Assembly (NCBI GenBank): GCA_014379045.1
Contig: JACMMK010000199.1
Span: 1 to 32,305 of the forward strand
Direction of reading: 5' to 3'
Source: Burkholderiales bacterium
GTDB lineage: Bacteria; Pseudomonadota; Gammaproteobacteria; Burkholderiales; CAIKXV01
DNA length: 32,305 bases
This document shows, piece by piece, positions 4,709 through 32,305 of the stretch. A program made the position numbers and the translations under genes. Numbering within the stretch: the first letter of the stretch is position 1; each line of letters begins with the position of its first letter. The notes under the pieces are model-generated. The model saw nothing but the letters and a program-made list of their open reading frames with translations, ran no database searches and was not told the origin of the DNA.

Positions 4709-4813
4709 GAATCCGTCTCCCGAGATCGCAGTGTGAATCATTGCACCGATGCAATCGGCATGCCATCGATGCTGCCCACGCCACCGCGCGCTCATTCGCC
4801 TACGACTTTCCGC

Positions 4814-6004
4814 ATGAACGACAGAGCTCCGATGCACGACGATACGCCGTCAGTCCCTTCGATGACCCGTCCCAAGTTGCCCTGGGCCGGCACGACGATC
4901 TTCACTGTCATGTCGACGCTCGCCACGCAGCATCGCGCGCTCAACCTCGGGCAGGGCTTTCCCGATTTCGACTGCGATCCGGCCCTGCAGGCACTCGTCA
5001 CCGAAGCGATGCGCGCGGCGCACAACCAGTATGCCCCGATGCCGGGCGTGCCGGCGTTGTGCCAGCGCATCGCCGACAAGACCGCGGCGCTCTACGGGCA
5101 CCGGTACGAGGTCGACACCGAGATCACCGTCACCGCGGGCGCGACGCAGGCGATCATGGCGAGCGTAATCGCGCTCACCGGCGCCGGGGACGAAGTGATT
5201 GTGCTGGAACCCGCCTACGACGCCTACCTGCCGTCGATCGAGCTGGCAGGAGCGGTCGCGGTCCGCGTGCCGCTCGACGCCGCGCGCGACTACGCGGTGG
5301 ACTGGGATCGGGTGCGTGCCGCGATCACCCCGCGGACCCGGATGCTGTTGATCAACTTCCCGCACAACCCGACCGGACAGGTGCTCGACGACGCCGACCT
5401 GCGCGCACTCGAAGACATCGTCTCGAGCACCGGCATCGTCGTGTTGTCCGACGAGGTGTACGAACACATCGTGTACGACGGGCGCGTGCACCAGGGCATC
5501 GCGCGTTCGCCGTTGCTCGCCGCCAACGGCGTGCTGATATCGAGCTTCGGCAAGACCTTCCACACCACCGGCTGGAAGGTCGGCTACGTCTGTGCACCGC
5601 AGGCTCTCACCGCGGAGATCCGCAAGGTGCACCAGTTCATGGCGTTCGCAGTCTCGACGCCGATGCAGCATGCGATCGCGGCCTATCTCGCCGATCCCCG
5701 CCCCTACCTCGACCTGCCCGCGTTTTACCAATCGAAGCGCGACCGGTTCTGCAACGCGCTTTCGGGCTCACGGTTCAGGCTCTTGCCGTCACCGGGAACC
5801 TATTTCGTGCTGGCCGACTATTCGGCGCTCAGCGATGAGCCCGAGGATGTGTTCGCGCGCAGACTGATCGAACAGCACGGGGTGGCGGCGATCCCGGTTT
5901 CGGCGTTCTACCGGGAGGCCGTCGACAACAAAGTAGTGCGCTTCTGCTTTGCAAAGCGCGACGAGACCATCGACGCGGCAGCAGATAAACTGAGTGCGGT
6001 GTGA
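4814..6004 (+). CDS. PLP-dependent class I/II aminotransferase (methionine/kynurenine aminotransferase-like)
   Basis: C-terminal part of ORF 3485..6004: TRPKLPWAGTTIFTVMSTLATQHRALNLGQGFPDFDCDPALQ..., NFPHNPTGQVL, LSDEVYEHIVYDG, SSFGKTFHTTGWKVGY. Start could also be 4832 or 4862. Confidence 0.92.
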   Translation: MNDRAPMHDDTPSVPSMTRPKLPWAGTTIFTVMSTLATQHRALNLGQGFPDFDCDPALQALVTEAMRAAHNQYAPMPGVPALCQRIADKTAALYGHRYEVDTEITVTAGATQAIMASVIALTGAGDEVIVLEPAYDAYLPSIELAGAVAVRVPLDAARDYAVDWDRVRAAITPRTRMLLINFPHNPTGQVLDDADLRALEDIVSSTGIVVLSDEVYEHIVYDGRVHQGIARSPLLAANGVLISSFGKTFHTTGWKVGYVCAPQALTAEIRKVHQFMAFAVSTPMQHAIAAYLADPRPYLDLPAFYQSKRDRFCNALSGSRFRLLPSPGTYFVLADYSALSDEPEDVFARRLIEQHGVAAIPVSAFYREAVDNKVVRFCFAKRDETIDAAADKLSAV

Positions 6005-10626: not shown

Positions 10627-10630
10627 GGAG

Positions 10631-11596
10631 TCAGCCCTTGGCGGCGTCAGTCATCGTGGCCGCCAGCGTGCGGCGCACGAGCGGCAACTTGAAAGCGTTG
10701 TGCTCGGTGGTTGTCGCACCGGAGAGGACGACCTCGGCAACGGCCTCGGCGCCGCGACCGACCTCGGCCTCGGCCGCTTCGACGCGCCATGGCTTGTGGG
10801 CGACGCCCCCGAAGGCGAGGCGGCCCCTGACGACGCGGTCCCGGTCGAAGACCAGCACCGCCGCGATCGAGACGGTGGCGAACGCGTAAGACGCGCGGTC
10901 GCGAACCTTGCGATAGACGTGCACGCCGCCGATCGGCCTCGGCAATGTGACCGATACGATCAGCTCACCCATGCTCAGTGTGGTGTCGTTCTGCGGCTCG
11001 TTCCCCGGCAACCGGTGGAGATCAGCGATGGGAATGGCGCGACGTGTTCCGTCGGGAGACACCGTTTCGATGGTGGCATCGAGCACCCGCATCGCGACTG
11101 CCATGTCCGATGGGTGCGTTGCAATGCAGGCATCGCTCGCGCCCAACACAGCGTGATTGCGGGTCAGGCCGCCGATCGCAGCGCACCCTGAACCCGGCGC
11201 GCGCTTGTTGCACGGCAGGGCGGTTTCGTAGAAGTACGGGCAGCGTGTCCGCTGCAGAAGATTGCCTGCCGTCGTCGCCTTGTTGCGCAACTGGCCCGAG
11301 GCACCGGAAAGAAGGGCGCGCGACAGGACGGCGTAATCCTTACGGACGCGGGCGTCGCTCGCAAGATCGGTATTTCGCACGAGTGCCCCGATCCGCAACC
11401 CGCCCTCCGGTGTCGGCTCGATTGCGTCGAGACCGAGACGGTTCACGTCGACGAGATGGGTTGGCGTTTCGATCTGAAGCTTCATCAGATCGAGCAAGTT
11501 GGTGCCGCCAGCGATGAACTTCGCTCCGGGTTTTCGAACGACGGCTTCTGCTGCATCGGCCGGGCTGGTTGCCCGTTCGTAGGTGAAGGCTCTCAT
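10631..11596 (-). CDS. Xanthine dehydrogenase family protein, FAD-binding subunit (PaoB-like, with extra Cys motif)
   Basis: [45 protein letters not shown]; four-Cys region [55 protein letters not shown]. Confidence 0.94.
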
Positions 11597-12225
11597 GCCC
11601 GATATCCCGCGACGTCGCGGATCGCCGCGACGATGTTCGGATAGGCCGCGCACCGGCAGATGTTGCCGCTCATCCGCTCGCGCAGTTCGGTGTCGTTCAA
11701 CCGAACCGCCGCCGTCAGGTCGCGCGTCACGTGGCTTGGAACGCCTCGCGACACTTCATCGAGGACGCCCGCCGCCGACATGATCTGCCCCGGCGTGCAG
11801 TAGCCGCACTGGAACCCGTCGTGCGCGACGAACGCTCGCTGAAGCGGATGCAGTTTGTCGGGCGTACCCAGCCCTTCGATCGTGGTGATCGCCTGACCGT
11901 CATGCATGACCGCGAGGGTCAGGCACGAATTGATGCGCCGTCCTTCGACGAGAACCGTGCAGGCACCGCACTGACCCTGATCGCAACCCTTCTTCGTGCC
12001 GGTCAGCTGCAGATGCTCTCGAAGCGCATCGAGCAACGTCGTGCGGGAGTCGAGATCGACAGTCAGATCGTTGCCGTTGACGGTCAAGCGTGTCGGCGCA
12101 GCACTCGATGCTTTAGCGATCGTTTGCGCGTTCACCGCCTGCAGATTGGAGCCACTTTCCGTTGCGGCCAGTACCGCCGCTGCCGTTGTTTTCAGGAATG
12201 TTCGGCGGCCAACGTTGGAACTCAT
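11593..12225 (-). CDS. Tat-exported 2Fe-2S subunit of xanthine dehydrogenase family enzyme (PaoA-like)
   Basis: 210 aa; twin-arginine leader [41 protein letters not shown] and [12 protein letters not shown]...[16 protein letters not shown]. Confidence 0.95.
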
Positions 12226-12382
12226 GGGTCATGTTTCCTAAATGGAGCGGAGGTTTCACGAAGGTCTCTCTTGTGCGTGTCGCTCGAACACGCAGGTCGA
12301 CGTGGACGCATTCAGCTGCCAACACATTCGCTCTGAAATGAGCGCGCCCATCTTGCGAGGGTATCGGGATCCAAACTCCTCG

Positions 12383-12399
12383 GCCTTCGATTTCAGGTG
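12383..12399. promoter_or_regulatory. Upstream motif copy A: GCCTTCGATTTCAGGTG
   Basis: 17-nt exact match to 16273..16289, located upstream of the Fe-S subunit start (12225). Confidence 0.5.
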
Positions 12400-12577
12400 A
12401 ACCCGTTGGTACTCGCCCGACGATTGTGAATGAACCCGGCACTGCGCAGTTGCGCTCCCGGCGAAGGACGCCGAGTGTCATGTGCTTTGATCGCTCGATC
12501 GGAGGTAGGCATGGTGAGCGACCTATCGCTTTACCTCGATCGATTGCCAGGGTCCCGCCGCCGAGCTCCATTCCGCG

Positions 12578-13477
12578 TCATGAAGAATCGCGATAGGCCG
12601 TTGGACTCTGGCCGGTCACCTTGCGGAACACCGTCGCGAAGTGCGTGCTGGCTGTGAAGCCGACCGCCATTGCCACTTCGGTCACACTCAACGCGCGGTT
12701 GCGCTGAAAGAGGGCCTGGGCTCGAGCAATTCGCCTTGCGACAAGGTATTGGTGCGGAGGCTCACCCACTGTCCTGCGGAACGTCGCGCCGAAATGACGT
12801 TGTGACAGCCCAGCCACCATGCTGAGTTCCGCCAGCGAAATCTCTTCGTTGAGGTGGTCTTCGATATGCTCCAGGACGCGGCGCAGCCGCCAACCGACAA
12901 GACCACCACGAACACTACGATAGACCCGGGCCTCGGCTCGATCGGGCCATACTGATCTTGTGAGATGCGCCAGGACAAGGCCTGCTGCGTGCTCGGCGTA
13001 ACAAGACGACACGTCGTTGTGCATTTCGCGCGCTAACGATGACAGGATGCTCTCGAGCAGCGCGTCACGATGGTTCGTGAACGGTGAAACGGCACTCAGT
13101 GCGCGTTCGAACTCGCGTGATTCCACGAACTCGGGGGCGACGAAAAGAGCGACGTACTCCATGTCAGCGGCTCGATACCAACGCTCGGTCGCGGTACCCG
13201 CAGGCACGAAAGAGACGCACCCACGCGCGTCGTGTCCTTCGTATATCGAAGTGCCAGAGATTCTTGTTCCTGTGACTTTGCTCCCGCCGCCGAGTGTCAA
13301 GACAATCGAATGCTGCGGCCAACAAACGTTCAACTCCAGCTGTGCACCGCTGAACCGCCCGACGATGCCGTGAAGACTGGCCTGCAGCCAGGAACGCCGC
13401 GCGCTGAACTGCGAAAATGCCCCGCCGCTCGGTCCGTCAACCTTCACGTTTGCCTTTGCGCCAAAAGCGTTTTTCAT
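12578..13477 (-). CDS. AraC family transcriptional regulator
   Basis: 299 aa; C-terminal double HTH: ISLAELSMVAGLSQRHFGATFRRTVGEPPHQYLVARRIARAQALFQRNRALSVTEVAMAVGFTASTHFATVFRKVTGQSPTAYR. Confidence 0.92.
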   Translation of the reverse strand: MKNAFGAKANVKVDGPSGGAFSQFSARRSWLQASLHGIVGRFSGAQLELNVCWPQHSIVLTLGGGSKVTGTRISGTSIYEGHDARGCVSFVPAGTATERWYRAADMEYVALFVAPEFVESREFERALSAVSPFTNHRDALLESILSSLAREMHNDVSSCYAEHAAGLVLAHLTRSVWPDRAEARVYRSVRGGLVGWRLRRVLEHIEDHLNEEISLAELSMVAGLSQRHFGATFRRTVGEPPHQYLVARRIARAQALFQRNRALSVTEVAMAVGFTASTHFATVFRKVTGQSPTAYRDSS

Positions 13478-13616
13478 ACCGCGTCATCGAAATTCGTGGC
13501 AAGCACCCGCCGAAAGCCTGATCGCGAAACCGTCAGCGCCGCACGATTCGAAATCCTCCTGCCGGAAGCGGACGGTCTCGGAGTTGAAGAACTGACCACG
13601 CGGCGCGCAAAGCTCT

Positions 13617-15824
13617 TCACGCTAGCGAACGAAGTCCGGGCAGCAGTTTATCCAGAGTGATCGGGTAGTCGCGCACGCGTATCCCGGTCGCGTTGTAGAT
13701 CGCGTTTGCGACCGCAGCCCCCGCACCGCAGATTCCGAGCTCGCCCACGCCCTTCGCCTTCATCGGAGAAGACTTGTCGTCGAGTTCGTCCAGGAACATC
13801 ACGTCCTGGCTTGGAATGTCGGCGTGGACGGGGATTTGATACTCGGCAAGATCGTGGTTGACGAAGTAGCCGTGCCGCTTGTCGACGACGAGTTCCTCCA
13901 TCAACGCCGCACCGACGCCCATCGTCATTCCGCCGATGACCTGGTTGCGCGCCGACTTCGGGTTGAGGATACGGCCGGCAGCGAAGACGCCTGCCATGCG
14001 GCGAACGCGGGTCTCGCCGGTCATCGCATCGACGCCCACCTCGACGAAATGCGCGCCGAAGCTGGCGTGCGCGAACCGCTTCTGCAGGTCGCCGAACTCG
14101 ACCTTGTCCTCGACGACGACACCGTCTGGTCCCGCCGCCTGAGCCAGCGTGACACTTCGATTGCCCACGCGGATCCTGCCGCTCTCGAACCGGGCCTCAT
14201 CGGCATCGAAACCCGTTTTCTTCGCCAGCGTCTGGCGCAGTGTCATGCAGGCGGCGTAGACGCCCGCGGTCGAGCTGTTGGCGCCCCACTGCCCGCCGGA
14301 TCCCGCGGATACCGGGAACGTGCTGTCACCGAGCTTTACCCTGACCTGCGCAAGCGGCACGCCCATCGTTTCGGCCGCGGTCTGCGCAATGATGGTGTAA
14401 CTGCCCGTACCGATATCGGTCATGTCCGTTTCGACGGTAACGACACCCTTGGCGTCGACGCCAACGCGCGCAGCCGAATCCATCACGGGGTTGCCGCGCA
14501 GCGCCGCTGCCATGCCCATACCGACCAGCCAGCGGCCATCGCGGACCTGCGCGGGCTTCCTGTTGCGTTTGTCCCATCCGAAACGCTGGGCACCAACGGT
14601 CAGGCATTCGACCAGCTTGCGGCTCGTGAAGGGGCGGCTCAGGCCTTTTTCGGGATCGTACTGAACGTCGTTGATGATGCGAAGACGCACCGGGTCGATG
14701 TCGAGTTTCTCGGCCAGTTCGTCCATGGCGACCTCGAGTGCCATCGAACCGGGGGCCTCGCCGGGTGCACGCATGGCGTTGCCCTCGGGCAGGTCGAGCA
14801 CCGCCAGTCGTTGTGCGGTCATGCGGTGCTCGCCGGCGTACAGCAGCCGTGTCACGAACGTCGCATCCTCGGTCTTGCCACCTGGAAGATCGCCTGACCA
14901 CGACTCGTGCGCGATCGCGTCGATCCGCCCGTCCGACCGCGCCCCGATTCGCACGCGCTGGATGGTCGCCGGACGGTGCACGGTGTTGTTGGCGATCAGG
15001 GGCCGCGACAACGCGACCTTGACGGGGCGCCTGGCTGCCCGCGCACCCAGCGCAGCCAGGATCGCATCGGATCGGATCCACAACTTGGCCCCAAAGCCGC
15101 CGCCAATGAACGGCGAGCTGACTTGAATGCTGGAAGCTGGAATGAGCAAGGTCTCGGCGGTATCGCGCACCGCCCAGGCGATCATCTGGTTGGATGTCCA
15201 AAGCATCAGCTTGTCGCCGCTCCAGGCGGCGATCGTCGCGTGCGGTTCCATCATTGCGTGACTGTGATCGGGGGTCGTGTAGGTTTCGTCGAGCTTGACA
15301 GCCGCGCGCGAGAAAGCGCCGGCGAAGTCGCCACTTGCCGTATCGGCAACGCCGAATTCGCCGTCCTTCTTGATGGCGTTGCCCTTCTCCGCGGCGAGGT
15401 CGAACCTGCCCTTGCGCGGCGCATAGTCGACGCGCACCAGCTTGGCGGCATCGCGCGCCTGCTCGAAGGTGTCGGCAACGACCAGGGCCACGGCCTGATC
15501 GTAATGCTGCACCTCCGGGCCCGCGAGCATCCTGGAGGCATGAGGCTTTGCCTGGCCGAGCTTGCCGGCGTTCATGTAGGTCACAATCGCGACGACGCCA
15601 GGAGCCGCAGCGGCAGCCTTGGTATCGATCTGAACGATACGGCCCGTAGCAATGGCGGCACCCACGATCCAGCCATAGGCGACGTTGCGAGCAACCTCGT
15701 TACGTTCATACGCGTAGCGGGCGGTCCCGGTGACTTTGGCGGGCCCGTCGATGCGATCGATCGAACGGCCGATGACTAGACCACGGTCGATGGCGTTGGC
15801 GGTAGCGGGTTTGTCGAACTTCAC
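13617..15824 (-). CDS. Xanthine dehydrogenase family protein, molybdopterin-binding subunit, copy 2
   Basis: 735 aa; IGGGFGAKLWIRSDAILAALGARAARRPVKVALSR, AGSGGQWGANSSTAGVYAACM, GVGELGICGAGAAVANAIYNATGIRVRDYPITLDKLLPGL. Confidence 0.95.
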   Translation of the reverse strand: MKFDKPATANAIDRGLVIGRSIDRIDGPAKVTGTARYAYERNEVARNVAYGWIVGAAIATGRIVQIDTKAAAAAPGVVAIVTYMNAGKLGQAKPHASRMLAGPEVQHYDQAVALVVADTFEQARDAAKLVRVDYAPRKGRFDLAAEKGNAIKKDGEFGVADTASGDFAGAFSRAAVKLDETYTTPDHSHAMMEPHATIAAWSGDKLMLWTSNQMIAWAVRDTAETLLIPASSIQVSSPFIGGGFGAKLWIRSDAILAALGARAARRPVKVALSRPLIANNTVHRPATIQRVRIGARSDGRIDAIAHESWSGDLPGGKTEDATFVTRLLYAGEHRMTAQRLAVLDLPEGNAMRAPGEAPGSMALEVAMDELAEKLDIDPVRLRIINDVQYDPEKGLSRPFTSRKLVECLTVGAQRFGWDKRNRKPAQVRDGRWLVGMGMAAALRGNPVMDSAARVGVDAKGVVTVETDMTDIGTGSYTIIAQTAAETMGVPLAQVRVKLGDSTFPVSAGSGGQWGANSSTAGVYAACMTLRQTLAKKTGFDADEARFESGRIRVGNRSVTLAQAAGPDGVVVEDKVEFGDLQKRFAHASFGAHFVEVGVDAMTGETRVRRMAGVFAAGRILNPKSARNQVIGGMTMGVGAALMEELVVDKRHGYFVNHDLAEYQIPVHADIPSQDVMFLDELDDKSSPMKAKGVGELGICGAGAAVANAIYNATGIRVRDYPITLDKLLPGLRSLA

Positions 15825-19509: not shown

Positions 19510-20508
19510 CTAGTCGATCTTCGCGCCGGACTCCTTCACGACCGTCGCCCACTTGCGCACCTCTTCGCGAATCAACGCCGCATACTCTGCAGGGGTGCCG
19601 GTCTTCGGCTCGGCCCCCTGCTCGCTCAGCGACTGGCGAATCGCCGGGTCCGCCATCACGCTCAGCACGGCCGCGTTGATTCGGTCGACGAGCGCCGGCG
19701 CCAGCCCCGGCGGCCCGACCAACCCGAAGACCCCGCTCGCGTCGTAACCCGGCACGCCCGACGCGGTGATCGTCGGCACGTCGGGCAATGCCGCAATGCG
19801 CGCACCGGTGCTCACGCCGAGCGCCCGGACCTTGCCGGCCTTCACGTTCGCCACCGCCGACGGTGCGGTCGCGAACGACGCCGAGACGTGCCCCGCCATC
19901 AGGTCGGTCATCGCCGGCGGCCCGCCCTTGTACGGCACATGCAGCATGCTGGTGCGGGTCATCGTCTTGAACAGCTCCGCGGCGAGATGCGGCTGGCTGC
20001 CGTTGCCGGCCGAACTGTAGGCGAGTTCGCCCGGGCGCTTCTTCAGCAGCGCGATGAACTCCCGGACATTCGTCGCCGGCACCGACGGGTGGACGACCAG
20101 CACCTGCGCGGTCTCGGCCACCGTGACGATCGGCGTGAAATCCTTCAGCGGATCGTACGAGAGCTTCGGGTACAGGCTCGCGTTGATGCTGTGGACTGTC
20201 GAGGCCATGAACAGCGTGTAGCCGTCGGCGGGCGAGCGCATCGCCTGTTCCGCGCCGATATTGGCACCACCGCCGGGCCGGTTGTCGACGATCACCGCCT
20301 GCTTCCAGTCCTTGGCCAGACGCTGGCCGATGATGCGCACGATGATGTCGGTCGTGCCGCCCGGCGGGAACGGTACGATGATGCGTACCGGCTTGCTCGG
20401 AAACTCCTGCGCCGATGCGACCGTGACGACCGTGCCGGCCGCACCCACGATACCCATCGCAAAGACCGCGACGCAGCGCGGCGCGAATGCGCTCGAAACT
20501 ACTCTCAT
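19510..20508 (-). CDS. Bug family tripartite tricarboxylate transporter substrate-binding protein
   Basis: QEFPSKPVRIIVPFPPGGTTDIIVRIIGQRLAKDWKQAVIVDNRPGGGANIGAEQAMRSPADGYTLFMASTVHSINASLYPKLSYDPLKDF; start at MRVVSSAF (20508). Confidence 0.94.
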   Translation of the reverse strand: MRVVSSAFAPRCVAVFAMGIVGAAGTVVTVASAQEFPSKPVRIIVPFPPGGTTDIIVRIIGQRLAKDWKQAVIVDNRPGGGANIGAEQAMRSPADGYTLFMASTVHSINASLYPKLSYDPLKDFTPIVTVAETAQVLVVHPSVPATNVREFIALLKKRPGELAYSSAGNGSQPHLAAELFKTMTRTSMLHVPYKGGPPAMTDLMAGHVSASFATAPSAVANVKAGKVRALGVSTGARIAALPDVPTITASGVPGYDASGVFGLVGPPGLAPALVDRINAAVLSVMADPAIRQSLSEQGAEPKTGTPAEYAALIREEVRKWATVVKESGAKID

Positions 20509-20549
20509 CGATTCCCCCTCCGGTGCACTGCCGTTGTTCGATTCGTGCC

Positions 20550-21251
20550 TCACGCGTCGACGAACAGTCTCCCCGCGCCGGCGATCGTGCGTGTGTCGCC
20601 GATGTGCCGCAACGTGCCCCACAGCGCCGCCTGATTGCTGGTGACGGTCGGGCGTCGTATGTCCCGCTCGACCTCGTCGATGATGTCGAGCGTACGGAAG
20701 TTCGAACAGCTGATGAACAGCGCCTCGGTCTCGGGGCGCATCACTTCGAGCGCGAGCGCCTTCACCTTGTCGGTGCTGATGCTCCCGTGCGCCTGCGTGC
20801 CCAGGCCCTTCATCGCGACAATGTCGAAGCCCGCGGCCTCGAGATACCCGCGCAACTTCTCGTTGAGCCAGGGCTCGTAGGGCGAAGCCACGCTGATGCG
20901 TCGCGCGCCCAGCGCGCGCAGCGCCTGCACGATGGAGGCCGACGAAGTCACCGTCGGGATGCCGGTGCCTTGCGCGAGCGCAGCGGCCATCGCGACGTCC
21001 TGCTCAGGAGACTTCAGGAAACCGCTCGCGGTACAGCCGTGGCAGATCGCACGGACTTTCGCGTGCGCCACCAGTTCCGCGGCCGCTGGCGCCTGCGTCG
21101 TGAGCCATGCGAGATCCGCCTCGGTGTCGGCGGTATGGCGGATGCGCTGCGAATGCACCGAGACCGCCTCCCCGCACATCCGCTGCCACTCGTACTCCAT
21201 CACCGTGTTCCACGATGGCACGATGATTCCCAGCTTGAGGTCCCAGCTCAT
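20550..21251 (-). CDS. Maleate cis-trans isomerase / Asp-Glu racemase superfamily protein
   Basis: 233 aa; LKLGIIVPSWNTVMEYEWQRMCGEAVSVHSQRIRH; Cys motifs ICHGCTASGF and LFISCSNFRTLDIIDEVE. Confidence 0.88.
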   Translation of the reverse strand: MSWDLKLGIIVPSWNTVMEYEWQRMCGEAVSVHSQRIRHTADTEADLAWLTTQAPAAAELVAHAKVRAICHGCTASGFLKSPEQDVAMAAALAQGTGIPTVTSSASIVQALRALGARRISVASPYEPWLNEKLRGYLEAAGFDIVAMKGLGTQAHGSISTDKVKALALEVMRPETEALFISCSNFRTLDIIDEVERDIRRPTVTSNQAALWGTLRHIGDTRTIAGAGRLFVDA

Positions 21252-21386: not shown

Positions 21387-22364
21387 TCAGTCCGCCCGCG
21401 CCTTCGAATCGCGCACGACCTTGGCCCAGCGCGCGATCTCCGAAGCAAGGTAACTCGCGAAAAACTCCGGCGATTCGGCGAGCGGGTCCGCGCCCATCTG
21501 CGCCAGACGCTCTCGAAACTCGGGCTTCTGCACCGACTTCACCGCGACCGTGTTGAGCGTGTTGATGACCTCGCGCGGCGTGGCGGCCGGCACCAGTATG
21601 CCGTACCACGTCTCGGTCACGAAACCCGGCAGGCCACCCTCGACCATCGTGGGCAGGTTGGGCAACAACGGCGATCGTTTGGCGCTCGTGATGCCCAGTG
21701 CGCGCACGCGACCCGCGCTCATCAGCGGTTGCGCCGAAGGGATGTTGTTGAACGCGAAGTCCACTTCGCCGCTGGCGAGCCCAGCGAGTGAAGGCGCACT
21801 GCCTTTGTACGGCACATGCGTCATGCCCGATCCGATCATCACGTTCAGCATCTCACCGGACAGATGCTGAGAACTGCCGACTCCGGACGATGAATAGTTC
21901 AGCCGGCCCGGGTTCTTCTTCGCCACCGCGATGAATTCCTTGACGGTCTTCGCGGGAAACGACGGATGTACCAGCAGCAGATTCGGGCTGGTTGCGAAGA
22001 TCGCCACCGGCGCAAAATCCTTGACCGGGTCGTAGTTGATCTTCGAGTACAGACTGACATTGATGCTGTGCGCGGCCGAGCTCATGAACACCGTGTAGCC
22101 GTCGGCCGGCTGGCGCGCGACGTATTCGGCCGCGATGTTCTGCGCGGCCCCCGCCCGGTTCTCGACCACCACCTGTTGACCCAGCGCTTCGGTGATCTGC
22201 TGCGCCATCAGCCGACCCATGATGTCGCTGCCGCCGCCCGGGGCATAGCCGATGATCATGCGGATCGGCTTGATCGGATACTTCGTGCCAGGAGCCTGGG
22301 CGTGGGCCACGTGCCAGGCCGTCATGAGACCGATCAGCAACGCGCTGCGGGCAAACGGATTCAT
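21387..22364 (-). CDS. Bug family tripartite tricarboxylate transporter substrate-binding protein
   Basis: 325 aa; KYPIKPIRMIIGYAPGGGSDIMGRLMAQQITEALGQQVVVENRAGAAQNIAAEYVARQPADGYTVFMSSAAHSINVSLYSKINYDPVKDF. Confidence 0.94.
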   Translation of the reverse strand: MNPFARSALLIGLMTAWHVAHAQAPGTKYPIKPIRMIIGYAPGGGSDIMGRLMAQQITEALGQQVVVENRAGAAQNIAAEYVARQPADGYTVFMSSAAHSINVSLYSKINYDPVKDFAPVAIFATSPNLLLVHPSFPAKTVKEFIAVAKKNPGRLNYSSSGVGSSQHLSGEMLNVMIGSGMTHVPYKGSAPSLAGLASGEVDFAFNNIPSAQPLMSAGRVRALGITSAKRSPLLPNLPTMVEGGLPGFVTETWYGILVPAATPREVINTLNTVAVKSVQKPEFRERLAQMGADPLAESPEFFASYLASEIARWAKVVRDSKARAD

Positions 22365-22440: not shown

Positions 22441-23418
22441 TCACTCCGTCTGGATCCGCGCATCGACGATCGTCTGCCGCCAGCGCTTGAGTTCCGACTC
22501 GATCATGCGCTGGAACTGCCCCGGCACCTGGACCGCCGGCTCCAGACCCGTGTTGGAAAGCCGCTCGCGCACGTCCGCCTGGGCGAGCGCGCGTCCAATC
22601 TCGTCGTACAGGCGTTGCAACACCGGGCGCGGCGTTCCCATCGGTGCCACCACCCCGTACCAGTTGGTGACGACAACGTCGTAACCGAGTTCGGTCAGCG
22701 TCGGCACGTTCGCGAGTGCGGCGCTGCGCTGCGTCGAGGTCACCACGAGCGGACGCAAACGGTTGGTCTGGACGAACTGCAGCGAGCCGCCGAGGCCGAT
22801 GAAGGTCGCCTGGATCTGGCCGGCGACGGTATCGTTCAGCGCGGGCCCCCCGCCCTTGTACGGAATGTGATTCAGATCGAGCCCGGCCTTGACCTTGAAC
22901 AGTTCGAGCGTCAGATGCAGACCACCGCCGTTGCCCGAGGACCCGACATTGAGCTTGCCGGGTTGCGCTTTCGCCAGCGCGATGAACTCCTTGATATTGG
23001 TGGCGGGCACCCCCGGGTGCACCATCAGCACGTACGGTGTCTCGGCGATCAAGGCGACGCCGACGAAACGCTGCACCGGGTCGGCCGGCGGTTGCTTGCG
23101 GTAATACGCGCTGTTGATCGTCAGCGCGAGATCGGCGAGCAGCAACGTGTAGCCATCCGGCGCCGAACGCGCGACCAGATCGGTACCGAGCATGCTCGCC
23201 GCGCCCGGACGATTGTCGACGACGACCGATTGGCCGAGCAGATCCGACAGCTTCTGTCCGATGATGCGGCCGGTCACGTCCGAGCCGCCGCCCGGCGCGA
23301 ACGGCACCACGAGACGGATCGGACGATTCGGCCACGTCTCGGCAGCGAGCGCGTAGGTCCCCGATGTGCCGAGGATCGACCCCACGACCAGACCCACACC
23401 GCAAACCGTTGCGCGCAT
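22441..23418 (-). CDS. Bug family tripartite tricarboxylate transporter substrate-binding protein
   Basis: Start MRATVCGVGLVVGSILGTSGTYALAAETWPNRPIRLVVPFAPGGGSDVTGRIIGQKLSDLLGQSVVVDNRPGAASMLGTDLVARSAPDGYTLLL. Confidence 0.94.
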   Translation of the reverse strand: MRATVCGVGLVVGSILGTSGTYALAAETWPNRPIRLVVPFAPGGGSDVTGRIIGQKLSDLLGQSVVVDNRPGAASMLGTDLVARSAPDGYTLLLADLALTINSAYYRKQPPADPVQRFVGVALIAETPYVLMVHPGVPATNIKEFIALAKAQPGKLNVGSSGNGGGLHLTLELFKVKAGLDLNHIPYKGGGPALNDTVAGQIQATFIGLGGSLQFVQTNRLRPLVVTSTQRSAALANVPTLTELGYDVVVTNWYGVVAPMGTPRPVLQRLYDEIGRALAQADVRERLSNTGLEPAVQVPGQFQRMIESELKRWRQTIVDARIQTE

Positions 23419-23543
23419 CAAGGAGACTCCAGCGTTCAGCAGCGTTGCGCATCGACCCATGGTTCGTTCGCCACGCCGCATCGTGTCAGGCGCTGCATCC
23501 TGCACCGCCCTGAACGGGTGCAAGGCCTGGCATGCGCGCGTCG

Positions 23544-24527
23544 TCAAGCGTAGTTCACCACCGCCCTGCCCTGCACACTGCCGGCCACCGACCGTTCGCA
23601 CTGCTCGATCACCTGGTCGATCGCGATGGGAAACCCGATCTTGTCGAGATTGCGCGGTTTGAGATCGGTCGCGATGCGCGCCCACACCTGCTGGCGCAGC
23701 GCCATCGGCGCGTTCGAGTTGACACCGATCAGCCGCACCCCGCGGAGAATGAACGGAAACACCGAGGTGGCCAGTTCCGCGCCGCCCGCATTGCCGAACG
23801 CGCCGATGACGCCGTTCTCCTGCATCGAACGGGTCAGCCACGACAGTTGCTCGCCCCCGACCGAGTCGAGCGCTCCCGCGAACTGCGACTTCTCGAGCGG
23901 CTTCTTGCCGAGTTCGAGTTCACTCCGCAGCCACACTTCGGCGGCACCGAGTTCCTTCAGGTAGGAGCGCGACTCGGCCTTGCTGGTCAACGCAACGACG
24001 TGATAGCCGCGCCGCGCAAGCATGTCGATGCCGATGCTGCCGCACCCGCCGGTGGCGCCGTTGACCAGCACGTCGCCGCTGTCGGGCGTGAGCCCGTTGT
24101 GTTCGAGCAGATGTATCGCCAGTGCCGCGGTGAAGCCTGCGACACCGAGCGTGCCGACGTCGAGCAGTGTCATGCCTGCGGGTACCGCGATCACCCAGTC
24201 GGCGGGAACGCGCACCCGCTCCGAGAAGCCGCCGTCGTGACTGACGCCGAGGCCGAAGCCGTTGACGAACACGGCATCTCCGACCTTGAAACGCTCGTCG
24301 CTCGAGCCTTCGACGACACCGGCGACATCGATGCCTGCGATGCACGGAAAGCGCGTCATGATCCGCCCACGTCCGGTAACCGCGAGCGCGTCCTTGTAGT
24401 TGATGCTGGCGAAGCGCGAGGCGATCACCACCTCGCCGGCATCGATCTCGTCGAGCGTCGTCTCGGTCAGCACGCCCGCCGCCTTGCCCCCGTCCTGGGT
24501 GACCCGAACCGCCTTGAATGTGGACAT
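23544..24527 (-). CDS. acuI: YhdH/YhfP family quinone oxidoreductase (acrylyl-CoA reductase AcuI-like)
   Basis: 327 aa; MSTFKAVRVTQDGG...ASINYKDALAVTGRGRIMTRFPCIAGIDVAGVVEGS...GFTAALAIHLLEHNGLTPDSGDVLVNGATGGCGSIGIDML. Confidence 0.85.
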   Translation of the reverse strand: MSTFKAVRVTQDGGKAAGVLTETTLDEIDAGEVVIASRFASINYKDALAVTGRGRIMTRFPCIAGIDVAGVVEGSSDERFKVGDAVFVNGFGLGVSHDGGFSERVRVPADWVIAVPAGMTLLDVGTLGVAGFTAALAIHLLEHNGLTPDSGDVLVNGATGGCGSIGIDMLARRGYHVVALTSKAESRSYLKELGAAEVWLRSELELGKKPLEKSQFAGALDSVGGEQLSWLTRSMQENGVIGAFGNAGGAELATSVFPFILRGVRLIGVNSNAPMALRQQVWARIATDLKPRNLDKIGFPIAIDQVIEQCERSVAGSVQGRAVVNYA

Positions 24528-24953: not shown

Positions 24954-25661
24954 TCAGCGCAACGGCGGCAACGACGCGACAATCCAGTCGATCAGCGCGT
25001 CGATCAGCGCGGTGCTCGCCGCCGTCAGCGACGCCGCCGCGCCCGGGGCATCCTGGGTCGGCGCCGGACGCTCGAAACTGAACGCGCGGTGGAACAGCGT
25101 CGCGCGCTTGATGCCGGCAATCAACGTCGCGCGCGCACGCACGACGCCTTTCGACTCCTGCGGCGAGTCGAAAACCTGGCTGAATTCGTCGAGCTCGACG
25201 CGCAGCAGGTAGTCGCTCTGCACACCATCGCGCGAAGATGCGAGGCCGGGTTGCGCCACCGCGGCGACCCGTGCGCGCAGGCGCGCCGTGATCATCTCGG
25301 GCGGCGTTCCGGCCCAGCGACTGCGCGAGTAGACGCGAGGCTGCCCGCCATCGACATACGCGAACCGATAGATGATCGAATTCGAGTCGAGCCACCCGGG
25401 TGCGATCGCATCAGGGACCGCAAGACTGGCACGGATGCGCGCCGGTTGATCGATCGGGGCCGGCGCGATGCCGAAATCATGAATCGTCGAGGGCGGCCGG
25501 GGCGTCGGCCCCAACCCGCAGCCACCGAGCGCGACGAACACGCCGCCGAGCGCCGAGCGCTGCAGGAACGTCCTGCGCATCGGAGGAGAAACCCGGGTCG
25601 GAATCTGCATCGGCGTATGCTCCATGCGACTGCGAATTGCGTTGGCCGTGTACCCGTGCAT
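24954..25661 (-). CDS. ABC-type transport auxiliary lipoprotein
   Basis: 235 aa; lipobox-like LGGCGLGPTPRPPSTIHDFGIAP; adjacent to MCE-type ABC genes; DYLLRVELDEFSQVFDSPQESKGVVRARATLI. Confidence 0.8.
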   Translation of the reverse strand: MHGYTANAIRSRMEHTPMQIPTRVSPPMRRTFLQRSALGGVFVALGGCGLGPTPRPPSTIHDFGIAPAPIDQPARIRASLAVPDAIAPGWLDSNSIIYRFAYVDGGQPRVYSRSRWAGTPPEMITARLRARVAAVAQPGLASSRDGVQSDYLLRVELDEFSQVFDSPQESKGVVRARATLIAGIKRATLFHRAFSFERPAPTQDAPGAAASLTAASTALIDALIDWIVASLPPLR

Positions 25662-26629
25662 CAGCGTTCGCCGGGGGCTGGGGGGATATAACCGGCCTCG
25701 CCCGGGCCCGGGCGCTGCGGGCCGCGTCCGAACACCAGGCTCTGCGGCTGATCCTGGAAATCGTTGAGCACGCGCTCGAGCACGCGCGAATTGCGCGACA
25801 GTTCGTCGATGAAGTCGCTGATCTTCGGCAGTGCGACGCTGACCACCGCTTCGCCGAACGCGAGGCCGACGTTGCCGATCTGCTCGGCGCTCTTGGTGAT
25901 CCGGTCGATCGACTCCAGACGCTGGCCGAGCGCAAGCGTGAACGTGTTGACGTTGGCCACCAGCTGATCGGTACGCTTGAGCACCAGGCTTGCATCGGTG
26001 GCGACGGCGGCCGTCGCCTTCAACGCCGGCGTGGCCTGGGCGAGGACAGGCAATGCCTGATCGGCCACCTTGGCCAGTTTGCCACTGGCGATTTCGATAT
26101 TGGTCAGCGTCGAGGTAAGCAGCGCCAGATTTTCATCGGACATCAGAAGCGCGACGCGACGCGCGGTCTCGTCGACACTCTTGATCAGCGCGGGACCCGA
26201 GGTGATCAGCTGGTCGACGAGCGACGGGTCGACCGGAATGCGCGGCAGCGAGCGAGCGTCGTACTCGAACTTCGCCGGGTTCCTGCCATCGTCTGACAGG
26301 TCGACATAGGCGAGCCCCGTAACCCCCTGGTAGCCGAGTTGCGCACGCGTACCGCGCGACAACGGTGCATCGCGGTCGATCAGCGCTGTGATCAGGATCG
26401 CCTGCGGGTTCTCAGGGTCGAAGCGGATGCTCTCCACTTTGCCGACGTCGACGCCACGTAACCTGACCGCTGCCTGGGCATTCAGGCCCGAGACCGAGCT
26501 GGTGGAGACCAGCACATACCGGTCGCGCACGACCGTGTCCTGTCGAAACCAGACGGCGACCGCAACCAGCGCCGCAATCAGCAGGAGCGTGAACAGACCC
26601 GCGGACAATACATGTGATCGATTTTCCAT
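25661..26629 (-). CDS. MlaD/MCE family protein
   Basis: MENRSHVLSAGLFTLLLIAALVAVAVWFRQDTVVRDRYVLVSTSSVSGLNAQAAVRLRGVDVGKVESIRFDPENPQAILITALIDRDAPLSRGTRAQLGYQGVTGLAYVDLSDDGRN. Confidence 0.93.
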   Translation of the reverse strand: MENRSHVLSAGLFTLLLIAALVAVAVWFRQDTVVRDRYVLVSTSSVSGLNAQAAVRLRGVDVGKVESIRFDPENPQAILITALIDRDAPLSRGTRAQLGYQGVTGLAYVDLSDDGRNPAKFEYDARSLPRIPVDPSLVDQLITSGPALIKSVDETARRVALLMSDENLALLTSTLTNIEIASGKLAKVADQALPVLAQATPALKATAAVATDASLVLKRTDQLVANVNTFTLALGQRLESIDRITKSAEQIGNVGLAFGEAVVSVALPKISDFIDELSRNSRVLERVLNDFQDQPQSLVFGRGPQRPGPGEAGYIPPAPGER

Positions 26630-26636
26630 CTGCGCC

Positions 26637-27461
26637 TCAAGCCCCCGCAGCAGAACCCGTGCCCGAGCGCGCGAGCATCGCACGCTGGCCGCGTTCGCCA
26701 CAGAAGAAATTGCATACGAACGGGTCGTCCAGCTTCGTGATCTCGGCCAGAGTATCGACCGCGACGAGGCGCGTACGCGCGAGTACGGCCACCCGGTCGG
26801 CGAGAGCGACCAGGGTGTCGAGGTCGTGGGTCACCATCACGACCGTCATGCGCAGCTCGCTGCGCAGGGCCTGGATCAGGCGCACGAAACTCTCGCTGCG
26901 ATCGGGGTCCAGACCCGCCGTCGGCTCGTCCAGGAACAGGAGTTCCGGGTCGAGCGCGATCGCACGCGCGAGCGCGATCCGCTTGACCATGCCGCCCGAC
27001 AGTTCCGACGGCTTCTTGTTTGCATGACGCGGCTCGATGCCGACCATCTCGAGTTTCATCATCACCAGATCGTGAATCACCTCGGCCTCGAGCTGTTTCA
27101 GTTCGCGCAGAGGCAACGCGATATTGTCGAACACCGAAAGGGCCGAGAACAGTGCGCCGTTCTGGAACAGCATGCCCCAGCGACTGCGCATCGCCGCAAG
27201 CTCATCCTTGCCGCCGCTGACGAGATCGACCCCGAACACCCGCACATGCCCTTCTGCAGGCCGTTCGAGTCCGAGCATCTGCCGGACGAGCGTCGTCTTG
27301 CCGCTGCCCGATCCGCCGACCAACGCTAGCACTTCGTCGCGGAACACGACCAGATCGATGTCGTTATGGACGACCTGGCGACCGAACCGGCTGGTGAGAT
27401 GCTCGACCTCGATCACCGCCTCGCGCGTTTCGGGTGCCGCTGCCGGCGTCGGCGCGTTCAT
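26637..27461 (-). CDS. ABC transporter ATP-binding protein (MlaF-like)
   Basis: Walker A GGSGSGKTTLVRQML, signature PSELSGGMVKRIALARAIALDPELLFLDEPTAGLDP; start at MNAPTPAAAPETREA (27461). Confidence 0.95.
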   Translation of the reverse strand: MNAPTPAAAPETREAVIEVEHLTSRFGRQVVHNDIDLVVFRDEVLALVGGSGSGKTTLVRQMLGLERPAEGHVRVFGVDLVSGGKDELAAMRSRWGMLFQNGALFSALSVFDNIALPLRELKQLEAEVIHDLVMMKLEMVGIEPRHANKKPSELSGGMVKRIALARAIALDPELLFLDEPTAGLDPDRSESFVRLIQALRSELRMTVVMVTHDLDTLVALADRVAVLARTRLVAVDTLAEITKLDDPFVCNFFCGERGQRAMLARSGTGSAAGA

Positions 27462-27530
27462 CGTCGCTCTCCGGCGTCGCCTCGCGGGCTCATCGTCTCT
27501 CACCTCCGTCCCTGTGCAAAGTAAGCCAAG

Positions 27531-27608
27531 GGACGATGAATGAGCCCGACTCGGCTACGTCGATCCCGTCACCTTTCAGGTGACGGGGCCCTCGCCGCTG
27601 GCCTCGCG
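27531..27608. repeat. Intergenic repeat element, copy 2, containing a perfect 10-bp hairpin (27565..27587)
   Basis: GGACGATGAATGAGCCCGACTCGGCTACGTCGATCCCGTCACCTTTCAGGTGACGGGGCCC... aligns with 21289..21366; hairpin CCCGTCACCT-TTC-AGGTGACGGG. Confidence 0.8.
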
Positions 27609-27611
27609 GGC

Positions 27612-28775
27612 TCACTGCACGATCCCGACGTTGGAAAACACGATCGCGAAGATCGCGTCGGCGAGGATCACGATCGTGATTGCACTGACGACCGACGCGG
27701 TGACCCCCCGCCCCAGGCTCTCGGTATTGGGCCGGATACGCAATCCGAAATGACACGCGATCAATGCGATCAGCAAGCCGAACACCACTCCCTTGCCAAG
27801 CCCGAGCCAGTAGTTTGCGATCGGCACCGCCGAGCGCAGACTGTCGATGAAATACGTGTGGCTGAGCCCCGTCTCGTACTCGGCGGCGAGCATCCCACCG
27901 GCGAGCGCCATCGTGCTCGTCCACAGGATCAGCAGCGGCATCGCGATCGCCAGCGCGATCGCCTTCGGCAGGATCAGGCGCCGCCCATGAGGGATCCCCA
28001 TCACCGTCATCGCATCGAGCTCCTGGGTGACGCGCATCACACCGAGCTGGGCAGTCATCGCCGACCCGGAGCGGCCGGCGACGAGGATCGCCGCGAGTAC
28101 CGGGCCCAGTTCACGAATCACGGCGATGCCGAGCAGGTTCACGATGAACACGTCGGCGCCGAACAGGTGTAGCTGCTTGGCGGACAGATAGGACAGCACG
28201 ACACCGATCAGGAACCCGACCAACGCAGTGATGCCGAGCGCCTGCGAGCCGGTGCGATACAGATTTGCCGAGATTTCCTTCCACGGGATGCGCGTTGGAT
28301 GCACGATGATTTCGATCAGATCGAGCGCAAGCTGTCCGATCAGCAGCAACAGTCCGTGCATGTGTCCGACAACCACGTCGAGCCATCGGCCGATCAGGAT
28401 AAGCGGCGCGGCCAGGCCGAGCGGCGCGACTGCGGGTCTTGCCTCCTTGACTCCAGCGAGGTGTTCGAACACCATTTCCTGCTCCGGGCGCAGTTCGAGG
28501 CCTGCGGGCTTCTTCCGCCCCCACGCGCGCCACAACAGTACTGCCCCGGCGTCGTCGAGGCGGCCCACTTCGCGCAGATCCCAGATGAGCTGCGGATCGC
28601 CCGCCAGGTCAGCGAGCTCGCGCCCCAGTTTCCGGCTGCGCGGGCCGAGCGCGAGCAGCGTCCAGGCACCGATCAGCCGAATGGTGCGCCGTGCGTCTGC
28701 GGTCGGCACCGATCCGGACTGCTTCCCGGCCTCGGCCCCACCGCCGAGTTCCCACCCCGGTTGCGTCCCTGCCAC
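27612..28775 (-). CDS. STAS-domain/MlaE family ABC transporter permease
   Basis: 387 aa; N-terminal STAS-like region (WDLREVGRLDDAGAVLLWRAWG) and MlaE region (GSQALGITALVGFLIGVVLSYLSAKQLHLFGADVFIVNLLGIAVIRELGPVLAAILVAGRSGSAMTAQLGVMRVTQELDAMTVMGI). Confidence 0.95.
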   Translation of the reverse strand: MAGTQPGWELGGGAEAGKQSGSVPTADARRTIRLIGAWTLLALGPRSRKLGRELADLAGDPQLIWDLREVGRLDDAGAVLLWRAWGRKKPAGLELRPEQEMVFEHLAGVKEARPAVAPLGLAAPLILIGRWLDVVVGHMHGLLLLIGQLALDLIEIIVHPTRIPWKEISANLYRTGSQALGITALVGFLIGVVLSYLSAKQLHLFGADVFIVNLLGIAVIRELGPVLAAILVAGRSGSAMTAQLGVMRVTQELDAMTVMGIPHGRRLILPKAIALAIAMPLLILWTSTMALAGGMLAAEYETGLSHTYFIDSLRSAVPIANYWLGLGKGVVFGLLIALIACHFGLRIRPNTESLGRGVTASVVSAITIVILADAIFAIVFSNVGIVQ

Positions 28776-28978
28776 TGTGAGCGCTCGTCAACCTGCTGTT
28801 GTGTATCGGTTTTTTCGCGGGCTTATAACGCGCCGGCGGCGCGCCATCAGCGAGATACTGTCCGCCCTGTTCGGTTCGCATCGTAATCACCTCTTTCAGG
28901 CAAGTCAAAAACGATGAGACGCGCGCAAACCGGACGGTGCGTCGCAACATTTTTTCGCCTCGGAATGGTGCATGGGGC

Positions 28979-29007
28979 TTGACATTCAAGCTGGACGCTC
29001 CTACATT
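28979..29007 (+). promoter_or_regulatory. Sigma-70-like promoter for the phasin gene
   Basis: TTGACA (28979..28984), 17-nt spacer, TACATT (29002..29007). Confidence 0.6.
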
Positions 29008-29014
29008 TCGTTTT

Positions 29015-29041
29015 GTGCAGCGCAACAACGGCGCGCTGCAC
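29015..29041 (+). promoter_or_regulatory. 5'-UTR stem-loop of the predicted phasin transcript
   Basis: GTGCAGCGC (29015..29023) pairs with GCGCTGCAC (29033..29041), 9-bp perfect stem with 9-nt loop, immediately after the predicted transcription start. Confidence 0.5.
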
Positions 29042-29175
29042 CGACCTGCCGCACCGTTTCGAGCCGCTTCGAGTCATGGAGCCACGAACCTGGGCGCTAC
29101 GGTCCTGCGGTGGGCGTGGCGTTGATCGCCAACCCGGCCTGCCGTCCAGCCGCTCATTCCTCCAGGAGATTCATC

Positions 29176-29700
29176 ATGATTCAAGTTCCCGAACAAGTTG
29201 CTGCGGTCACCAAAGCGCAGGTCGAAGGCGCCGTCAAATTCGCCACTTTCGGTCTGGAAGCCACCGAAAAATTCGTGGAGTTCCAGCTCAAGCACGCGAA
29301 GGTCGCGTTCGGCGATGTCGTCACCAACGCCAAGTCGATGTCCGACATGAAAGACGCGCCGACGATGCCTGAAATGAAGTCGGCGATGGTCGAGCCGGCG
29401 GTCGAGAAAATGACCGCCTATGCGAAAGGTCTGTACGAACTGTCGGCGGCGACCCAGGCCCAATTCTCGAAGCTGGTGGAAGAGCAGATGAGCTTCGTGA
29501 ACAGCCAGATGTTGTCGATGCTCGACAGCGCTGCGAAAAACGGCCCCGCCGGTAGCGACTTCGCCGTGTCGGCGATCAAGTCGGCGCTCGCGGCGGCGAA
29601 CTCGGCCTACGACAACCTTTCCAAGGCGACGAAACAGGCGACCGACATGGCGGAAGCCAACATCGCCAGCGTGACCGACGGCCGCAAACGCGCGGCCTGA
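29176..29700 (+). CDS. phaP: Phasin family protein (polyhydroxyalkanoate granule-associated)
   Basis: MIQVPEQVAAVTKAQVEGAVKFATFGLEATEKFVEFQLKHAKVAFGDVVTNAKSMSDMKDAPTMPEMKSAMVEPAVEKMTAYAKGLYELSAATQAQFSKLVEEQMSFVN; Ala/Lys-rich C-terminus. Confidence 0.92.
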   Translation: MIQVPEQVAAVTKAQVEGAVKFATFGLEATEKFVEFQLKHAKVAFGDVVTNAKSMSDMKDAPTMPEMKSAMVEPAVEKMTAYAKGLYELSAATQAQFSKLVEEQMSFVNSQMLSMLDSAAKNGPAGSDFAVSAIKSALAAANSAYDNLSKATKQATDMAEANIASVTDGRKRAA

Positions 29701-29854: not shown

Positions 29855-31246
29855 TCACGTCACACCGCTGTCTGCCGTGCGCGGCGGGGTCAGCGCGACG
29901 GCGCGGGCCGCCGCCGGAGTCATCGCGACGCAGACCCGGTCGCTCCCCTCACGCTTGGCCGTCTGCAGCGCTTCGTCTGACAGTCGCACCAGGGATTCGA
30001 CGTCGCGCACGCTGGCGTCGCGCGTCGCGACCCCGATCGACAGGGTCAGTGTCCGTTGCCCCGGCGCGCCGCCGAGCCCACTCCGAAACGCCTCACCGAC
30101 GGCTGCGTGCAGTTTTCGCGCGCCCGTCGCCGCGCCGATACTGTCGGTGTCCGGACTGATCACCATGAACTCTTCACCGCCCATGCGACAGATCACATCG
30201 TCGGTACGTGCCGATTCCCGCAACACCGCAGCGAGCCGACCGAGCGCCTTGTCGCCCGCCGCGTGTCCGTGGGCGGCATTGATCTGGCGGAACTGATCGA
30301 TATCGAGCCCCATGCACGACAGTGGACGGCGGTGCCGGGTCGATACCGCCCACTCGTGTTCGAGACGTTCGAAGGCGTGACGGCGGTTGGGCAAGCCGGT
30401 CTGGCCATCGATCAGCAGCGCACGCTGCAACCGGCGCTTGGCCACCGCAAGCTCTGCCGCGAGCTTGCCCAGATCATCCCGAGCCCGACTCGACACGGCG
30501 CGCAGCCCGATCATGCGCCGCGCACAGCGCAGTCGAAGCAGGAGCGACGCCGGATCGATCGGCAAGCACAGATAATCGTCAAGCCCGGTGTCGGGTCCGG
30601 CGCTGGATCCTTGCGCCGATGCGACCGCCGTCGCGGCCCGCAGCTGATCGAGCGCGTCTGCAGAATCGTTTGGCGCAATCATTCCGATCAGGTAAAGATC
30701 CTTGCCGATCACCGTCGCGCGCCGCGTCGTGCACAGACGCCTGGCCGCCGGTGCGCAAGCCGTGAGGTCGATGACCACCAGGTCGGGCAAATCGGTCAGC
30801 ACCGTCGCGAGCGCGATGTTCGCGTCCGCAAACGACCGCACCCGATGGCCCTGCCGGGCAAGCAACTCGCAGACGTGCGCCCGTGTTGTTTCGTCGGCGC
30901 AAACCACGTCGATGCTCAGGCCCGGCAACGCAGCCGGCGCTGCGCGCGGACTCGATACCGCGTCGGTCTCCGGGCGCGCGGGCGTGGACAGGGCGGATTC
31001 GACGTCCGCCGCTGCTTCACTCGACGCTTCGGAGGCGAAGTTCGACGCAGGTTGCGCGTCGACGTGCATCCCGAGCAGCGACGCCCAGCGCTGCCATCCC
31101 TCTCCGACCGCATCGCAGATCGGCGCGAGCACCACGGCTTCGATGCCGAGCTTCGCCGCGCGCTGCAACAGCGACGGCGTGATGCGCATGCGTGCGTCGA
31201 TGCCGGCGACGAAATACTCACCGACCAGTCGCGCAAGCGACATCAC
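29855..31246 (-). CDS. Diguanylate cyclase (GGDEF) with receiver-like region; C-terminal part of an interrupted HDOD-GGDEF protein
   Basis: 463 aa; receiver-like region (LSIDVVCADETTRAHVCELLARQGHRVRSFADANIALATVLTDLPDLVVIDL) and GGDEF domain with intact GGEEF (DDVICRMGGEEFMVISPD). Confidence 0.9.
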   Translation of the reverse strand: MMSLARLVGEYFVAGIDARMRITPSLLQRAAKLGIEAVVLAPICDAVGEGWQRWASLLGMHVDAQPASNFASEASSEAAADVESALSTPARPETDAVSSPRAAPAALPGLSIDVVCADETTRAHVCELLARQGHRVRSFADANIALATVLTDLPDLVVIDLTACAPAARRLCTTRRATVIGKDLYLIGMIAPNDSADALDQLRAATAVASAQGSSAGPDTGLDDYLCLPIDPASLLLRLRCARRMIGLRAVSSRARDDLGKLAAELAVAKRRLQRALLIDGQTGLPNRRHAFERLEHEWAVSTRHRRPLSCMGLDIDQFRQINAAHGHAAGDKALGRLAAVLRESARTDDVICRMGGEEFMVISPDTDSIGAATGARKLHAAVGEAFRSGLGGAPGQRTLTLSIGVATRDASVRDVESLVRLSDEALQTAKREGSDRVCVAMTPAAARAVALTPPRTADSGVT

Positions 31247-31297
31247 TTCGCACAGTGTCTGTACCCGCGACCCCTGATCGAATCCGCTCTGTTCCGG

Positions 31298-31927
31298 TTA
31301 CTCACTGTGGAAAACGGCGTCGATACAGATTCTCGGCAGTCGCCAATCCTCGAGCAGTGCGGCACCGAACTCGCGGTGATCCGCGCCGAACGTCTCGCGT
31401 TCGAACGCTGACCGATCGGCCGGTGCGGCGTCGGTATCGAGGATCTTCGCGAACTTTTCGGGATGCAGCGACGCGAGCGCGAGTGACCCGATCTCGGCGA
31501 GCAGCCCGCAGGTGAAGGCTTCTTCGGGCGCAAGCACCCGCACCCTGCCGCATAAAGTCTGCGCAGCGAGCGCGCTGGCGAGAGAGCGCGACCAGAAGCG
31601 GGGGTAGTCGAAGCCGAGACAGCGCCCTTCGCGCTGACCGTCGAGCACCGAGAAGCCCAGGCACAGCTGCCGCACGACCGCGAAGCCGAGCAGCTTCACC
31701 GCATCGCCGATCGCCAGCATCGGCCGCGCGGCACCGACCTGCGACGAATTGGCGAAGCGGACCAGTCGTCCGGCCAGCGCAGGATCGGCCTGGAGCACAT
31801 GCGCCAGCTGCGCGACGGTGGTGTCGTCGCGCTGCGTCAGGCGCAGGATCTCGAGCGCGACACCGGTCGGGCTCGGCAGTACACCGCTCGCCTTCAGATG
31901 CTCGAACCTGCTGAAGAGATAACTCAC
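31298..31927 (-). CDS. HDOD domain protein; N-terminal part of an interrupted HDOD-GGDEF protein
   Basis: 209 aa; LPSPTGVALEILRLTQRDDTTVAQLAHVLQADPALAGRLVRFANSSQ...AIGDAVKLLGFAVVRQLCLGFSVLD...EEAFTCGLLAEIGSLALASLHPEKF; ends ...AVFHSE* with the downstream ORF in the same frame. Confidence 0.9.
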   Translation of the reverse strand: MSYLFSRFEHLKASGVLPSPTGVALEILRLTQRDDTTVAQLAHVLQADPALAGRLVRFANSSQVGAARPMLAIGDAVKLLGFAVVRQLCLGFSVLDGQREGRCLGFDYPRFWSRSLASALAAQTLCGRVRVLAPEEAFTCGLLAEIGSLALASLHPEKFAKILDTDAAPADRSAFERETFGADHREFGAALLEDWRLPRICIDAVFHSE

Positions 31928-32052: not shown

Positions 32053-32305
32053 TCAGGGTGGCGAAGTCACCGCCGCAGGCAGCGGATACGTCGGGTATGC
32101 CTTGCGGAACTCGGCCAGCGCGTTGCCGGCTTCGACGAGGCGACCCGCACGGCGCAACGCGACGATCTCCTCGATCCATTTGTCGGGGGCGCGCGGCACC
32201 GCGGACGGCGCATCGACCCGATCCGCCGATGCTCCCGGCGCAGTTTCCGCGACCCGAGCGCGAGTGCGCGCACCTTCCGCGCCACGACCGGGCGGCTCGG
32301 CCACC
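32053..32305 (-). CDS. C-terminal part of a hypothetical protein running off the window
   Basis: ...APDKWIEEIVALRRAGRLVEAGNALAEFRKAYPTYPLPAAVTSPP*; open to the window edge. Confidence 0.55.
   Translation of the reverse strand, partial: VAEPPGRGAEGARTRARVAETAPGASADRVDAPSAVPRAPDKWIEEIVALRRAGRLVEAGNALAEFRKAYPTYPLPAAVTSPP

Follow-up and report, generated by a model that had tools for sequence, protein, structure and literature searches.

Does a single in-frame stop codon within a gene for an HDOD-GGDEF signaling protein mark a recent loss, a functional split into two products, a codon that is read through or an error in the sequence? The question is raised by the minus strand of the window, i.e., the whole 32,305-nucleotide stretch of DNA that was analyzed, which is one whole contig of a draft genome. 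From position 31927 down to 29855 this strand reads as a single frame, with a TAA at 31298–31300 as its sole interruption. Before the stop lie 209 codons that begin with a GTG at 31927. After the stop, the same frame remains open for 480 codons up to a TGA at 29855–29857, the ancestral end of the fused gene. Across these 480 codons the two alternative frames of the minus strand contain 14 and 7 stops, respectively, and the third-position GC of the open frame stays at 0.75–0.89 throughout; an open frame of this kind is hence not due to chance. Codon-position base composition is alike 5′ and 3′ of the TAA, and reading the full frame revealed no second defect. A sequence-only reading of this DNA had described an HDOD-GGDEF protein split by a single in-frame TAA, and the frame, the stop and both Pfam domains bear out this description.

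The part before the stop (31301–31927, minus strand) matches the Pfam HDOD domain (PF08668) at residues 17–207 with E 3e-50 and 170.8 bits, far above the curated cut-off of 22.9 bits, and is 72–77% identical to its counterparts in six congeners. The Pfam model is covered over nearly its whole length and ends near residue 208, i.e., almost at the stop. The fold continues beyond this Pfam border, however. In an AlphaFold model of residues 1–290 (mean pLDDT 90), helices 221–240, 243–259 and 264–285 are placed with high confidence. The predicted HDOD fold thus extends to about residue 285, from which it follows that the TAA would not sit at a natural domain border and that a stop at the Pfam border is not a clean domain split. 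The severed C-terminal helices, residues 211–290 (31058–31297, minus strand), are delineated by the alignment, the AlphaFold model and the chain of the HDOD protein MmoQ. In an alignment of 23 relatives, the invariant residues R221, W278, W281 and L285 all lie 3′ of the stop. According to the model, the 209-residue product would comprise the first 13 of 16 predicted HDOD-fold helices and lack the last three together with these four residues, and it would probably misfold. On the other hand, this extension, too, evolves faster in the genus (tree-length ratio 2.8 versus 1.6), which weakens the argument that losing residues 211–290 must be fatal.

Among solved structures, the HDOD protein SadB (PDB 9qzk) shares the HDOD fold but gave a weaker match. 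Its HDOD domain is preceded by another region. To our knowledge, SadB carries no GGDEF domain in the same chain. The closest solved structure by sequence is the HDOD fragment of MmoQ from Methylococcus capsulatus (PDB 3ljx, 3p3q; E 2e-84), whose chain aligned over profile positions 16–289, i.e., across the stop of the window. In Foldseek searches the window's HDOD model matched MmoQ (E 6e-13) as well as other HDOD structures, with a loose superposition on MmoQ (rmsd about 10 Å). MmoQ has been solved as a fragment only, and the likeness covers this HDOD fragment. MmoQ was proposed to act together with MmoS in the copper switch (PMC7994243), but the window locus offers no support for such a role.

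Beyond the HDOD fold, residues 335–475 (30503–30925, minus strand) align as a degenerate receiver-like domain. Its Response_reg (PF00072) score of 13.6–13.7 bits stays below the cut-off of 30.2 bits. Compared with the acidic pocket, phospho-Asp, Thr/Ser and Lys of a response regulator receiver, the alignment shows that the Asp of strand 3 is kept, whereas the Thr/Ser is lost and the conserved Lys is replaced by Leu, with an insertion before the last helix. The GGDEF domain (PF00990) follows at 29939–30412 on the minus strand, entirely 3′ of the stop, and was located by Pfam (E 5e-36), position search and alignment. As had been claimed, its GGEEF site is intact; the metal Asp (LDID), the Asn (QIN) and the Asp (GD) are also present, and an I-site RxxD motif (RTDD) lies five residues before the A-site (RTDDVICRMGGEEF). 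Fifteen further GGDEF genes occur in the same genome.

Ten other genomes of the genus were compared, and six of them (G001, G003, G004, G005, G007 and G009) carry the gene uninterrupted. Here HDOD, receiver-like and GGDEF parts form one piece, with the G003 gene ending before GGDEF. All six genes are convergent to a phasin gene and hence represent the same locus. In the window, this conserved neighbor is found at 28972–29700 on the plus strand (Pfam Phasin_2, E 4e-17), and 10 of the 11 genomes of the genus contain a phasin gene. On the other side lies the C-terminal end of an anti-sigma-like gene (32053–32304, minus strand), cut by the contig end and assigned by eye from its likeness to the G003 gene at the same place. 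The G004 gene spans two contigs that we joined through an identical overlap; contigs L079:1-150 and L137:1-150 share about 147 identical bases inside the gene and were left unjoined by the assembly. In G006, only the GGDEF end was present, on a short contig. Elsewhere in the window, MlaD, ABC ATPase and MlaE genes follow one another ahead of the phasin gene (25661–28775), and region 8473–15824 encodes two molybdopterin-binding dehydrogenase large subunits, FAD and 2Fe-2S subunits and an AraC-type regulator. Genes for TctC-type binding proteins are located near the dehydrogenase genes (3659–4837, 19510–20622, 21387–22364 and 22441–23841).

We also searched 300 genomes of the order for HDOD. At E 1e-30 or better the listing comprised more than 70 matches, most of them in frames of about 630 residues or more; the 231-residue frame of the window is unique among the matches listed, and none of them is a split relative of this architecture. 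The shorter HDOD frames of G131, G184, G202, G090 and G221 have no relative of the C-terminal half nearby and belong to other architectures, and a contig end truncates the short frame of G133. HDOD/receiver/GGDEF proteins of the same order (e.g., G163, G228, G038 and G023) have the same domain order and a similar length, an HDOD part about 50–59% identical to that of the window, and RxxD and GGEEF at the same place. In contrast to the degenerate receiver and interrupted gene of the window, they lack a stop and possess a canonical receiver that scores 90–97 bits in Pfam. The sequence-only reading had considered that orthologs might consistently be encoded as two genes. Instead, the search found the gene fused in each of the six congeners and in every relative of this type from the order, and a natural two-gene arrangement was hence rejected. 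Since the six congeners and all full-length relatives of the architecture are fused, the stop is derived and, as expected for a nonsense allele, absent from the orthologs. These continue past the position of the stop in the same way, in agreement with the earlier view that the post-stop sequence is the normal continuation of an HDOD protein. The proposed one-base change from GAA to TAA did not hold up: all fused relatives have a variable sense codon at this position (M, V, R, Q and T among the congeners), and with a column this variable the alignment does not allow the ancestral codon to be named. Searches of genome_contigs and viral_contigs for a second genome of the species yielded distant relatives only, or nothing.

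Throughout the genus, the C-terminal half of the gene is eroded. We compared domain rates on one topology, with branch lengths fitted to each domain separately. The tree-length ratio of GGDEF to HDOD was 3.7 within the genus versus 1.4 among other families; the truncated G003 gene, with its short and diverged tail, inflates the genus value, but without this terminal branch (1.50 of 3.98) it was about 2.5 and thus still exceeded 1.4. Relative to HDOD, GGDEF hence evolves about 1.7–2.6 times faster in the genus than elsewhere. For the receiver, the corresponding ratio was 4.1 in the genus versus 1.7 outside. Outgroup pairs with 71–75% HDOD identity have 63–84% GGDEF identity, whereas the GGDEF domains of congeners with 72–77% HDOD identity to the window are only 41–62% identical. 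In the closest congeneric pair, G005 and G007, dN/dS was 0.12 for HDOD and 0.35 for GGDEF; between the window and G009 it was saturated. The receiver reaches Pfam scores of 90–97 bits in four outgroups, whereas no receiver of the genus exceeds 24 bits; the window, G001 and G003 no longer have the conserved Lys. An insertion of roughly 8–16 residues near the end of the degenerate receiver-like domain (30503–30925 in the window) is found genus-wide.

The cyclase sites have failed in different ways. The A-site reads GDTRF in G001, GNTEF in G004 and GSEEF in G005. The metal Asp is missing from both G005 and G007, and G007, although its GGEEF is unchanged, lacks the Asn as well. In G003 (L082:3799-5313) the gene ends just before GGDEF and only about 180 bp separate it from the phasin gene; the cyclase domain has thus been deleted here in an independent event. 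Only G009 and the window have intact cyclase motifs. The site is thus damaged or deleted in five of seven species with the gene, and two more species are without the gene: in G010 (L154, G010:C11) and G008 (L155, G008:C283) the phasin gene adjoins the upstream CinA-like gene, with no HDOD gene at this syntenic place and, judging by the ORF lists, without the sigma/anti-sigma pair of G003. In these two genomes the gene was either lost or never gained; supports in a phasin tree were too low to tell loss from gain. The output half is under weak constraint genus-wide and has been lost by several routes, and the TAA of the window fits as one more.

We consider it on balance probable that a nonsense mutation recently struck an ancestral HDOD/receiver/GGDEF gene whose C-terminal output half was already weakly constrained. 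Judged by domain content, the ancestor would have combined an MmoQ-type HDOD fold, a phospho-receiver and a diguanylate cyclase output; in the intact protein, the HDOD fold and the phosphorylated receiver would gate GGDEF dimerization and c-di-GMP synthesis. Within the genus, the phospho-switch residues of the receiver have disappeared, and the cyclase site has been damaged or lost in most species. In this genome, translation would end after 209 residues and release an HDOD protein that lacks the final three helices, and the GGDEF half would then not be made, or only in traces by internal initiation. Function would thus probably be lost. With fifteen other GGDEF genes remaining, the loss of this one would be tolerable and need not be costly. 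Of the three origins offered by the sequence-only reading, we therefore favor the recent nonsense mutation in what was ancestrally one gene, while a split with re-initiation and readthrough found no support.

One observation speaks against nonsense decay, as the GGDEF half of the window is among the better preserved in the genus. In simulations of neutral substitution, a 480-codon frame had gained a stop in about 60% of cases at 0.04–0.05 substitutions per site and in 83% at 0.10. In amino-acid substitutions per site, the terminal branch of the window measures 0.36 (GGDEF) to 0.83 (REC). Set against the simulated stop gain, the good preservation of this half and the absence of a second defect suggest that either the stop is young or the GGDEF half is still used.

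The stop is known from one draft genome, in which an assembly error would look identical. We regard it as rather unlikely that an assembly or consensus error, or the allele of a minority strain, conceals a normal fused gene in this organism. The draft state of the genome (534 contigs, about 85% complete) would be in agreement with such an error, as would the fused state of all orthologs, the intact catalytic residues 3′ of the stop and a frame without a second defect. However, a base substitution is involved, no homopolymer lies at the site, and the affected gene is failing in most congeners, as expected of real decay. No other frame is broken among the Pfam-recognized genes of the window either, which speaks against generally poor sequence, although not against one wrong base.

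In a functional split, the HDOD part and a re-initiated receiver-like/GGDEF protein would both be made, and the cyclase would be freed from HDOD control. The intact GGEEF, RxxD, metal and guanine ligands after the stop would suit such a protein, and the GTG at 31246, which had been put forward as a restart site, is indeed the first in-frame start after the TAA, immediately followed by an in-frame ATG at 31243. However, neither of these nearest candidates (31243–31246, minus strand) is preceded by a Shine-Dalgarno-like sequence, with none in the 22-base stretch ahead of the GTG (GCGGGTACAGACACTGTGCGAA), and the TAA is separated from the first start by about 52 nt, a long gap for coupled restart. 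A clean restart after the TAA is hence unlikely, whereas low-level internal initiation may occur. Moreover, we found no promoter-like site or terminator, although this is a weak test in this bacterial group, the HDOD fold would contain the end of one product and the start of the other, and no relative is split likewise. Shigella flexneri provides a precedent: its dgcE, dgcN, dgcQ and dgcM genes likewise have nonsense mutations before an intact GGDEF domain and possible internal starts, dgcE, dgcQ and dgcN nevertheless increase c-di-GMP, and two products each arise from dgcM and dgcQ (PMC11327459). The Shigella genes differ in that their sensory domains are of other kinds, a Met codon lies near the stop in most of them, and their expression was shown, whereas the window is known from sequence. 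All in all, we judge a functional split improbable.

We give a similarly low chance to a wider scenario, in which the genus is dismantling the protein. In this case, the receiver switch would have been lost first and the cyclase then several times, by point changes, deletion, nonsense and whole-gene loss, while the HDOD core was conserved; the stop of the window would uncouple a still-active cyclase, expressed separately and at a low level, from its HDOD controller. Programmed readthrough or recoding of the TAA to a full-length protein is highly improbable, although the frame runs on past the stop, as the stop occurs in no relative and its residue column is variable, no Rfam element was found, the other GGDEF matches of the genome have no internal stops, and TAA is generally the least leaky stop codon.

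A recent nonsense mutation, which we prefer, would be unremarkable in itself, since a single stop is an ordinary event, and the case looks like ordinary gene decay. The value lies in the comparison set: at one conserved locus in one genus, one c-di-GMP gene is found intact, with a dead site, shortened, interrupted or absent. Such a set can be used to ask which of the modules in a multi-domain cyclase can be dispensed with, and whether a GGDEF domain still serves a function once its catalysis is lost.
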